From contig NZ_JAODNV010000022.1 of assembly GCF_025398195.1 (NCBI RefSeq), positions 1-46,193 on the forward strand: 46,193 nt of DNA, read 5' to 3'. Shown in pieces: positions 19,442-22,710 of this stretch. This DNA comes from Chelativorans petroleitrophicus (lineage in GTDB: Bacteria; Pseudomonadota; Alphaproteobacteria; Rhizobiales; Rhizobiaceae). Below the pieces are notes generated by a model. The model had not been told where the DNA came from. It worked only from the letters and a program-made list of their open reading frames with translations, and searched no databases. Made by a program: the position numbers and the translations under genes. The first letter of the stretch is position 1. Every line of letters starts with the position of its first letter.

Positions 19442-20491
19442 ATGACAGACGTTTCCATAACTGAAGCCGCCGGCCCTCCGGACGGCGAAGCCAGCTCCCC
19501 CTCGGAAGGCGAGGACGGCTCTAGTAGACCTCCGCAACGCAACAAGCGACATTTCTCGCTGCTTGAGCGGCTTACGGGCTTTATGCGCCTGCGCAACGGC
19601 TCATCTCTGCGCGAGGATCTTGCCGACGCCCTTGCGGAAAGTACGCCGGAAACGGCGTCCTTCTCGCCCATCGAGCGGGCGATGCTCAACAACATTCTGC
19701 GCCTACGCGAACTGCGGGTGGAGGATGTCATGGTGCCGCGCGCCGACATCGAGGCGGTGGAGATCAACACCACCCTTGGCGAGCTGCTAAACGTCTTCGA
19801 CCGCGGGGCGCATTCGCGCATGCCCGTCTATGCGGAAACGCTCGATGATCCGCGGGGAATGGTGCACATCCGCGATATCGTGGCGCATCTCATCCGCGCT
19901 TCGCGGCCCAAGAACGGGCGTGGACGCAAGCAGGAAGCAAACCCGCCCCTGTCGCTCGGTAATGTGGATCTCAACCGCACCATCGGCGAACTGAACATCG
20001 TCCGCCCGCTGCTCTTCGTGCCGCCCTCGATGCTGGCGTCGGACCTCATGGCGCGCATGCAGGCGAGCCGCACCCAGATGGCGCTCGTCATCGATGAATA
20101 TGGCGGCACGGACGGGCTCGTCTCGCTCGAGGACATTGTGGAGATGGTCATCGGCGACATTGAGGACGAGCACGACGAGGACGAGCCGATGATCGAGAAG
20201 ACCGGCGACGGCATCTTCGTCGTCGACGCGCGCGCGGAGATCGAGGATGTCGCCCGCGCGATCGGAGACGGCTTCAGCCCCGGCGAGCACGCCGAAGAGG
20301 TGGACACGATCGGCGGCATGATCTTCAACGCGCTGGGCCGCGTACCCGCGCGCGGCGAGGTGGTGCAGGCGATCCCCGGCTTCGAGTTCCATGTGCTCGA
20401 TGCCGATCCGCGCCGCGTGAAGCGCGTGCGTATAGTGCAGGGCCGTACGGCCGAGCGCCGCCGCCGCATAATGAAGGCACCCGAGGCGTAG
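19442..20491 (+). CDS. corC: Hemolysin family/CorC protein with paired CBS domains
   Basis: A 349-residue soluble protein. The segment RVEDVMVPRADIEAVEI opens the first CBS motif (about residues 94-160), a second CBS unit with DLMARMQASRTQMALVIDEY runs to about residue 235, and a CorC_HlyC domain follows at about residues 245-330. There is no DUF21 membrane domain, so it is the cytosolic CorC/TlyC form tied to magnesium/cobalt efflux. It is often called hemolysin C without proof. The first 40 residues are low-complexity. It lies 27 bp after ybeY in the phoH-ybeY-corC-lnt order seen in many proteobacteria. Confidence 0.92.
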   Translation: MTDVSITEAAGPPDGEASSPSEGEDGSSRPPQRNKRHFSLLERLTGFMRLRNGSSLREDLADALAESTPETASFSPIERAMLNNILRLRELRVEDVMVPRADIEAVEINTTLGELLNVFDRGAHSRMPVYAETLDDPRGMVHIRDIVAHLIRASRPKNGRGRKQEANPPLSLGNVDLNRTIGELNIVRPLLFVPPSMLASDLMARMQASRTQMALVIDEYGGTDGLVSLEDIVEMVIGDIEDEHDEDEPMIEKTGDGIFVVDARAEIEDVARAIGDGFSPGEHAEEVDTIGGMIFNALGRVPARGEVVQAIPGFEFHVLDADPRRVKRVRIVQGRTAERRRRIMKAPEA

Positions 20492-20598: not shown

Positions 20599-22164
20599 AT
20601 GGAGCGACTTGCCGGACGAGTGTTTCTGTTGTGGAGCTGGCCGCGGCGGCTCGCCGCCTGCGCGGCGGGTGCAATCACCGTTCTGGCGCTCCCCCCCTTC
20701 GATTTTCCGGCGGCCGGTTTTTTCTCCTTCCCGATTCTTGTCTGGCTGCTTGACGGTACACCGGCGGCGGGAGCGGCATGGCGGCGCTTCCTGCCGGCCT
20801 TTTCCGCCGGCTGGTGGTTCGGCTTCGGCTATTTTCTCGCCGGCATGTGGTGGGTGGGTGCACCCTTTCTCCGCGACCTGGGCCTTGCCTGGGCCCTGCC
20901 CCTGGCCGTGCTCGGCCTGCCCGCGTGTCTCGCCCTGTTCTACGGTCTGGCCACGCTGATCGCCCGCCTGCTCTGGAGCGACGGCATCGGGCGCATAGCC
21001 GCGCTCGCCTTCGGCTTCGGGATTGCCGAATGGCTGCGCGGCGCGCTTCCCTGGGGCCTGGCCTGGAATGCCATCGGCCTTGCCGCCATGCCCGTGCCGC
21101 TTCTGATGCAGGGCGCGCATGTGCTGGGCGTGGCAGGGATGAGTGCGGCGGCCATTTTCGTCTATTCAACGCCTGCTCTTCTCGCGACGCGGCTTCATGC
21201 ACGCGCCGGGTTGACGCTGGCGGCCATCTTGATCGCCGCCCAGCTCGGCTATGGCTATGCGCACCTGTCGATGAATCCCGAAACGGACCGCGTTCTGCGC
21301 GTCCGGCTCGTGCAGCCTGTTCCGGAGGCAGGCGGCGATTTCGACGAGACGCTGAAAACCTATCTGGAGCTGACCGCTTCTCCCGTCGCCGACGGACAGG
21401 CTTCACCCGAACTTATTCTCTGGCCGGAGCTGTCCGTCCCCTTCGTGCTTGCCGAAAGGCCGGACCTGCTCGATGCCATCGTCCGTGGCCTCAGGGATGA
21501 CGAGCTGCTGATTGCCGGCACGGTGCGGCAAGAGAGCGGACCAGAGGCGGGCATGCGGCGGCTCTATAACGCAGTCGTCGCTATCAGCAAAACGGATGGG
21601 ATTATCGATGGGGCAGATAAGGTAAACATTGCTCTCTTTGTCGATCACCTGCCCTTCGAAGGAATCTTTCCGGGTGCCGGGCCGGATAGTCCCCTAACGA
21701 AAACGTCGTATTCCCCCGGCAGCGCCCGGAGACTTCTTTCCGTATCAGAAAACATTGGTGCGCTGCCGCTCATCGGCACGGAGGCGGCAATTCCCGGTAT
21801 TGCCGAACCTCATGCCCAAAGGGTGGACCTCATCCTCAATCCGGCCAATTATTCAGCCTTCGCCGGCCTGCCTGTCTCCTATCAGCATCTGCGCCAGGCC
21901 CAGCTTCGCGCGGTCGAGGCGGGACTCCCTCTGCTGCTTGCCATGCCGCATGGTCCGACCGCGGTCATCGATGCCCGAGGCCGTGTGATCGACGCGCTCG
22001 CAGCAAGCCGTCGCGGAATCATCGATGTCGCGGTGCCGCTGACCGAAAATGGAATGTTGCCGGGCGGCAGCAGCACCTTGCGCGGCCTTGTTTTTTCCGC
22101 AATGCTGGGGATGGTTGCGTTGTTTTTAATCATACGTGTAGGCATTCCCGAGAGTCGCGATTGA
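20599..22164 (+). CDS. lnt: Apolipoprotein N-acyltransferase-like protein lacking the catalytic Cys
   Basis: A 521-residue protein with the Lnt plan: an N-terminal membrane bundle (about residues 15-215, including FDFPAAGFFSFPILVWLL and GWWFGFGYFLAGMWWVG) and a C-terminal nitrilase-type domain. Of the E-K-C triad, the glutamate is present (E277 in LWPELSVP) and the lysine is present (K341 in GADKVN). The usual LICYE segment reads PLIGTEAAIP, placing G393 where the nucleophilic cysteine belongs. NVTNDAWFG is also altered to NPANYSAFAG and the TNxG turn to MPHG. Lnt transfers the third acyl chain to lipoproteins. This copy is predicted unable to form the thioester. The start at ATG 20599 avoids the upstream terminator. 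Confidence 0.85.
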   Translation: MERLAGRVFLLWSWPRRLAACAAGAITVLALPPFDFPAAGFFSFPILVWLLDGTPAAGAAWRRFLPAFSAGWWFGFGYFLAGMWWVGAPFLRDLGLAWALPLAVLGLPACLALFYGLATLIARLLWSDGIGRIAALAFGFGIAEWLRGALPWGLAWNAIGLAAMPVPLLMQGAHVLGVAGMSAAAIFVYSTPALLATRLHARAGLTLAAILIAAQLGYGYAHLSMNPETDRVLRVRLVQPVPEAGGDFDETLKTYLELTASPVADGQASPELILWPELSVPFVLAERPDLLDAIVRGLRDDELLIAGTVRQESGPEAGMRRLYNAVVAISKTDGIIDGADKVNIALFVDHLPFEGIFPGAGPDSPLTKTSYSPGSARRLLSVSENIGALPLIGTEAAIPGIAEPHAQRVDLILNPANYSAFAGLPVSYQHLRQAQLRAVEAGLPLLLAMPHGPTAVIDARGRVIDALAASRRGIIDVAVPLTENGMLPGGSSTLRGLVFSAMLGMVALFLIIRVGIPESRD

Positions 22165-22296: not shown

Positions 22297-22710
22297 ATGA
22301 ACAACAGCAAGAAGAGGCCGAATCCGATCGACGTTCACGTCGGAAGCCGAATCCGGCTGCGCCGGAATATGCTTGGCATCAGCCAGGAAAAGCTGGGCGA
22401 GAGCCTGGGCATAACTTTTCAACAAATTCAGAAGTATGAGAAGGGGACGAATCGCGTAGGCGCCAGCCGCCTGCAGGCGATCGCATCGATTCTCAACACC
22501 CCGGTTTCCTTCTTCTTCGATGGCGCCCCGGGCGACAGCAGCGCGCAACCTGGGCTGGCCGAGGAGAACGCGACCTATGTGGCCGATTTCCTCAACAGCT
22601 CCGAAGGCATTCAGCTCAATCGAGCCTTCGTCAAGATTGCCGACCCGAAGGTTCGGCGCCGGGTGCTCGACTTGGTAAAGGCATTGGCGGCTGATCCGTC
22701 GAGCGAGTAG
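22297..22710 (+). CDS. XRE-family helix-turn-helix regulator
   Basis: A 137-residue protein with a Cro/C1-type HTH at about residues 14-70. IRLRRNMLGISQEKLGESLG and ITFQQIQKYEKGTNRVGASR are textbook positions for the two helices, then ASILNTPVSFFF. Residues 75-137 form an acidic/helical tail of unknown role. Small XRE regulators in front of metK are a recurring rhizobial arrangement and resemble the SinR/PraR-type group. It could regulate metK or its own operon, but no operator was identified. Confidence 0.92.
   Translation: MNNSKKRPNPIDVHVGSRIRLRRNMLGISQEKLGESLGITFQQIQKYEKGTNRVGASRLQAIASILNTPVSFFFDGAPGDSSAQPGLAEENATYVADFLNSSEGIQLNRAFVKIADPKVRRRVLDLVKALAADPSSE

Follow-up and report, generated by a model that had tools for sequence, protein, structure and literature searches.

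A lone, genus-wide Lnt homologue without its catalytic cysteine in Chelativorans: an apparently inactivated N-acyltransferase whose gene is retained

A gene for apolipoprotein N-acyltransferase (Lnt) whose product carries glycine in place of the catalytic cysteine raises the question of whether the enzyme has died, has been replaced or has been put to another use in its host. Such an open reading frame lies on the forward strand at positions 20599..22164 of the window, the whole 46,193-nucleotide stretch of Chelativorans petroleitrophicus DNA analysed here, and encodes a 521-residue protein. Each of the 11 native copies of the genus has Met at the column of its ATG start. A sequence-only reading had reported its coordinates, residues E277, K341 and G393, and the altered stretches NPANYSAFAG and MPHG, all of which agreed with the sequence when it was read again, and had offered decay in place, a second true Lnt elsewhere or a non-thioester role as explanations.

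Membership in the Lnt homologous family is indicated by both the domains and the fold. The protein reached 213.3 bits against the Lnt equivalog model TIGR00546 (cut-off 132.9) and contains the Pfam domains LNT_N (67.5 bits) and CN_hydrolase (just 35.6 bits), both above cut-off; with so clear a TIGR00546 score, pipelines using that model would call a dead Lnt a working enzyme. The AlphaFold2 model had a mean pLDDT of 81, with unsure parts (pLDDT <50) at residues 1-11, 91-95, 352-369 and 516-521, and the best 24 PDB matches of the predicted fold were all Lnt structures, from crystals and cryo-EM (TM 0.76-0.81 by query). An N-terminal membrane domain (residues 1-225, positions 20599..21273, forward strand) is followed by a nitrilase-like domain (residues 226-480, positions 21274..22038, forward strand). 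The gene is bordered on the left by a corC-like gene (19442..20491, forward strand), a provisional name based on membership of the HlyC/CorC family and on the presence of ybeX next to lnt in E. coli, and on the right by a gene for an HTH regulator (22297..22710, forward strand) and then metK, both named from their translations.

In an alignment including E. coli Lnt, the column of the nucleophile C387 holds G393 (GGC, positions 21775..21777) in the window protein and Cys in all 123 comparison rows that have this column, which bears out the earlier assignment of Gly to the nucleophile position. The comparison set consisted of 124 rows, namely 76 named loci, 47 loci from 45 non-genus genomes, which the named loci may overlap, and one foreign copy from the genus (G009, see below); L171 is a fragment lacking the C387 column, and L049-L052 were left out of the counts, being from the same genomes as G001, G007, G003 and G006. 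The possibility that another cysteine takes over the nucleophile position, raised by the same reading, did not hold, since the only two cysteines of the window protein, C21 and C110, both lie in the membrane domain; the CYE motif is absent from all three forward frames of the gene. A substitute cysteine was also sought in the 11 genus copies, and no nitrilase-domain column had one common to the clade; two cysteines occur in both G004 and G005, at the columns of window residues 442 and 486, and single ones are present near the C-terminus in a few copies.

Two members of the E-K-C triad are present in the window protein, E277 (GAG, positions 21427..21429, column of E. coli E267) and K341 (AAG, positions 21619..21621, column of E. 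coli K335), which are kept in 9/11 and 8/11 genus copies, respectively, and jointly in just 6/11. The passages of PMC3850990 on active-site residues name W237, E343, Y388 and E389 as further essential positions of Lnt. At these columns the window protein has F248, D349 (positions 21643..21645), T394 and E395 (positions 21781..21783), so that E389 alone is kept; genus-wide, W237 and Y388 are kept in none of the 11 copies and E343 in one, with Asp in eight. The glutamate of the E389 column and the glycine of the G447 column (E. coli numbering) are retained in all 11, the latter being the Gly of MPHG (positions 21943..21954), which replaces ANNG/ANTG. Likewise, NPANYSAFAG (positions 21838..21867) replaces NVTNDAWFG in the alignment. 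The changed active-site stretches had thus been listed correctly, and the list was too short, as the Y388, E343, S411 and W237 columns are changed too.

Of the positions with a conservation of 97% or more in the catalytic rows, 15 survive in no more than 3/11 genus copies, among them the columns of C387, Y388, E343 and S411 and the NDxW stretch; structural roles for C387, Y388, E343, S411 and K335 are set out in the relevant part of PMC5500888. Beside the Cys thiol, E. coli has S411 and relatives have Thr; in 9/11 genus copies the residue there is Ala. The catalytic positions have been lost selectively, with the rest of the triad and the pocket eroding. The new states are themselves conserved (Gly393 in 10/11 copies, P155A in 10/11, T416A in 9/11 and E349D in 8/11), a pattern in the aligned sequences that suggests re-packing of the pocket more than it does random loss.

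With the nucleophile absent, the known two-step mechanism of Lnt cannot run. Acyl transfer might in principle continue without a covalent thioester, Glu277 and Lys341 supporting direct transfer, and the complete retention of the E395 and G452 columns together with the frequent retention of E277 and K341 is in keeping with such chemistry. That proposal is very improbable in view of the few copies having both E and K, the general loss of Y388, W237 and E343, and the behaviour of E. coli C387S, which according to the account of this variant in PMC3850990 forms an acyl-enzyme but has no detectable Lnt activity. An error of sequencing or assembly at the Cys codon, which a single genome might have suggested, has practically no probability left and is refuted by the congeners, because the change is common to 11 widely differing genomes and is accompanied by other changes in the pocket.

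The window genome (G000, 99.97% complete) was compared with 15 congeners. Among these 16 Chelativorans genomes, 11 carry a native lnt that is open and lacks the Cys, four have no lnt and one has only a foreign Cys-bearing Lnt. The Cys column holds Gly in ten native copies and Asp in one (G011), and the other ten Cys-less proteins share 37-58% protein identity with that of the window. Searches of G000 with the window protein and with TIGR00546 returned no second Lnt above cut-off, the five other TIGR00546 matches being four to the nitrilase part only (C1, C69) and one at chance level (E 5.4); the suggestion of a second true Lnt elsewhere is therefore not supported in this nearly complete genome. 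The catalytic partner expected of an accessory Lnt was accordingly not found in G000, and this speaks against the protein being a helper of a second Lnt. In G002, G012, G013 and G014, a search with a profile built from 25 Lnt proteins found no Lnt, two of these genomes giving chance-level matches (E 0.6-0.7).

Outside the genus, absence is rare. Lnt-family genes occurred in 57/61 genomes of the relatives set, all four misses being within Chelativorans, and in 295/296 genomes of a family sample, the lone miss being a 0.9 Mb genome; the latter figure describes presence and not activity, since inactive copies also score above the cut-off, and the sample drew none of the Lnt-less Chelativorans genomes. 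Loss of Lnt thus looks tolerable but uncommon. Within the family, the Cys column was read for Chelativorans, the genomes of the 61-genome set and two low scorers, G081 and G093. The former is a genome of 1.5 Mb from a different genus of the family, and the only Lnt found in it carries Ser (SYE) at the nucleophile position (L221, G081:C1:192569-194095), apparently a parallel and independent loss of the Cys. In the latter, another genome of the family, lnt is split over several frames with the CYE motif present (G093:C1:1149600-1151129; L222, L226-L228), reflecting either real decay or a sequencing fault.

The history of the locus was reconstructed from a neighbour tree of the hth, metK, trmB and corC proteins with 11 outgroup loci, in which corC was missing for 5/16 genus rows and 2/11 outgroups. 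The genus was separated from the outgroup loci with a support of 1.000, and Cys-less forms stand on both sides of its basal split (0.970); in the Lnt tree, the 11 Cys-less copies form one clade with an SH-aLRT of 100. As these forms flank the first split, the trees are most easily explained by a single basal loss, and the Cys was most simply lost once, in the common ancestor of Chelativorans. Downstream of the Cys-less lnt, hth and metK follow in 11/11 copies, and corC is a near upstream neighbour in 6/11. It was not found within about 5 kb upstream in G007, G003, G001, G006 and G010 (L146-L150), in which the link between corC and lnt seems to be broken. A horizontal origin of the window gene was considered and excluded by the ancestral neighbourhood and by the nesting of its clade among Lnt proteins of the family near L107, L024 and L120; on this comparative sequence evidence, the gene is the vertically inherited native lnt of Chelativorans.

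In five genomes the slot between corC and hth has no native lnt; four of them (G013, G012, G002 and G009) form one clade (0.991), while G014 is placed apart from them with weak support (0.634), so that two gene losses are likely, the alternative being one. In G013, about 33 codons of the 3' end of lnt persist as a C-terminal relic. Although devoid of the native gene, G009 encodes a Cys-bearing Lnt at another locus (L144, G009:C11:55000-70000), in what is presumably an acquired cluster related to metals. The neighbours of this lnt are a second lspA, a Fur-family gene, a DsbD-like gene and a gene for an E1-E2 (P-type) ATPase that has a His-rich stretch; this foreign Lnt groups with E. coli on long branches of the Lnt tree, and its placement is unsure. 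The absence of the native gene from five genomes implies that any remaining role is dispensable in some lineages and not essential; the foreign Cys-bearing Lnt in one of them suggests that some circumstances may still favour N-acylation.

Such losses lend weight to a slow decay of the locus, by which catalysis is unneeded, the gene is on its way out and the constraint on it reflects the cost of misfolding with no positive function. Besides the empty slot in 5/16 genomes, the G013 relic and the two losses on the tree, with G014 weakly placed, this explanation draws on the further loss of E or K in various copies and on the rate of substitution. In six genus pairs, dN/dS of lnt was 0.22-0.34 (mean 0.25), about 2.8 times the mean of 0.09 in eight pairs of catalytic Lnt (0.05-0.13), and it was the highest among the genes compared in every genus pair; neighbour genes in the genus had values of 0.04-0.19, and in the control pairs trmB reached 0.25 and metK 0.19. 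Whole-gene values are near saturation for distant species, so weight was placed on close pairs, and the pairs formed within G001, G003 and G007 depend on one another.

Several observations speak against decay as the whole account. The value of about 0.24 persists even between close species, all 11 retained native copies are open, and in a neutral simulation only 0-1.3% of ORFs were still stop-free at single-lineage distances of at least 0.325, so that several stops would be expected at the larger distances; at the smallest distance tested 17.5-20.5% remained stop-free, and close pairs alone therefore prove little. In the same six genus pairs the membrane domain (0.12-0.22) is more strongly conserved than the relaxed nitrilase domain (0.24-0.46) and stands nearer to catalytic Lnt, both domains of which gave 0.05-0.12 in the seven of the eight control pairs used for this analysis. 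The genus-wide conservation of the replacement residues points the same way. Low dN/dS and open frames beyond the neutral expectation indicate that the constraint on the Cys-less lnt is relaxed but real, and the protein accordingly has the features of a pseudoenzyme, with the fold kept, a catalytic residue lost and the gene retained under selection. A dN/dS well below 1 could also stem from selection against a misfolded membrane protein. The proposal of decay in place thus holds for the raised rate and the emptied slots and fails for the open, constrained copies, and slow decay as a full explanation is judged rather unlikely.

What would make the loss of activity tolerable is suggested by the rest of the lipoprotein pathway. 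In all 16 genus genomes lgt and lspA were above cut-off, and each had exactly one lolCE match above cut-off (362 bits), aside from an extra match at 169 bits in G001, G003 and G007 and scattered matches below 25 bits in five genomes. Judged by its copy number, the single lolCE gene would be functionally equivalent to LolF. Extra lspA copies above cut-off were seen in G002, G009, G010 and G012 (4/16), perhaps in mobile clusters. The sole lspA match of G006 (G006:C13:484536-485104; L149, L194) is located some 120 bases 5' of the Cys-less lnt, an arrangement not seen at most other slots checked.

Another possibility is that an unrelated enzyme N-acylates lipoproteins in the genus and has freed Lnt from this task. 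Lipoprotein acyltransferases other than Lnt are known in other phyla, including a two-gene system in S. aureus that we take to be LnsAB. The S. aureus system is treated in PMC7387801, and Lit, a further non-Lnt lipoprotein acyltransferase, in PMC8275575. The foreign Lnt of G009 would also fit a replacement of this kind. Since the searches, which covered the Lnt and Lit families, found Lit in 0/16 genus genomes and no second Lnt-family protein above cut-off in G000, this replacement is considered improbable.

Taken together, these results make it probable that Lnt of Chelativorans is an inactivated enzyme, that the protein is kept for a non-catalytic role, and that N-acylation by Lnt has ceased, with diacyl lipoproteins exported by LolF. 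Briefly, the ancestral Lnt would have lost the acyl-enzyme nucleophile, lipoproteins would then have remained diacylated, and the cell would tolerate this because LolF accepts diacyl lipoproteins. The retained protein probably acts without catalysis, perhaps with its membrane chamber binding phospholipid or the diacyl lipoprotein after LspA. This non-catalytic role is the weakest step, as slow decay with a residual folding constraint would explain much of the same data; the non-thioester role put forward by the sequence-only reading is nonetheless compatible with the results and better motivated than before. A more specific version, in which Lnt has become a dedicated lipid- or lipoprotein-binding membrane protein that takes diacyl lipoproteins after LspA and passes them to LolF, is put forward only tentatively and is doubtful; if true, the Lnt step would persist in the pathway as a docking stage, the third acyl chain having been dropped.

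The window protein resembles Lnt of E. coli and P. aeruginosa (TIGR00546) in its two-domain fold, its length, the gene neighbourhood of the family and its best 24 PDB matches, and differs in lacking the catalytic Cys, Tyr388 and Trp237, with E343 usually Asp in the genus. Cys-less Lnt homologues are already known, but beside a working Lnt. This is the situation of M. bovis BCG_2279c, an Lnt homologue with the nucleophile replaced (C387S) that, as PMC3850990 relates for four tested lipoproteins, was unable to substitute for their N-acylation. BCG_2279c is a second copy beside the working BCG_2070c, as far as that account goes, whereas in Chelativorans no other Lnt was found, the replacement is Gly or Asp, and every native copy found is affected. 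S. scabies Lnt2 is comparable as an Lnt homologue for which, according to the pertinent passage of PMC3850990, a subsidiary part outside N-acylation proper is proposed; it helps Lnt1, however, and the window genome yielded no partner Lnt, and by the wording of that passage the S. scabies copies are not missing a triad residue.

Life without N-acylation by Lnt has precedents in S. meliloti, H. pylori, Francisella, Neisseria gonorrhoeae and Acinetobacter, where the loss is tied to LolF in the section of PMC7240156 concerned, which also gives lnt as dispensable in S. meliloti and apparently nonessential in LolF bacteria. In those species, as that section presents them, lnt is present and a laboratory knockout is possible, whereas in Chelativorans the activity has apparently been lost in nature throughout the genus. 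Literature searches found nothing on Chelativorans with apolipoprotein N-acyltransferase, and the matches for Chelativorans with lipoprotein look unrelated by title; as far as the searches show, and among the matches listed, a pseudo-Lnt that stands alone, is retained and extends through a Gram-negative genus is new.

Chelativorans thus appears to be a natural case of a Gram-negative genus giving up the last step of lipoprotein maturation. If true, the export of diacyl lipoproteins by LolF would become testable in wild strains, since a dead Lnt, no Lnt at all and a foreign Cys-bearing Lnt as the only one are all represented among the genomes of this one genus. A lone and selectively retained pseudo-Lnt could, in addition, serve to tell a binding function of the membrane domain apart from catalysis.
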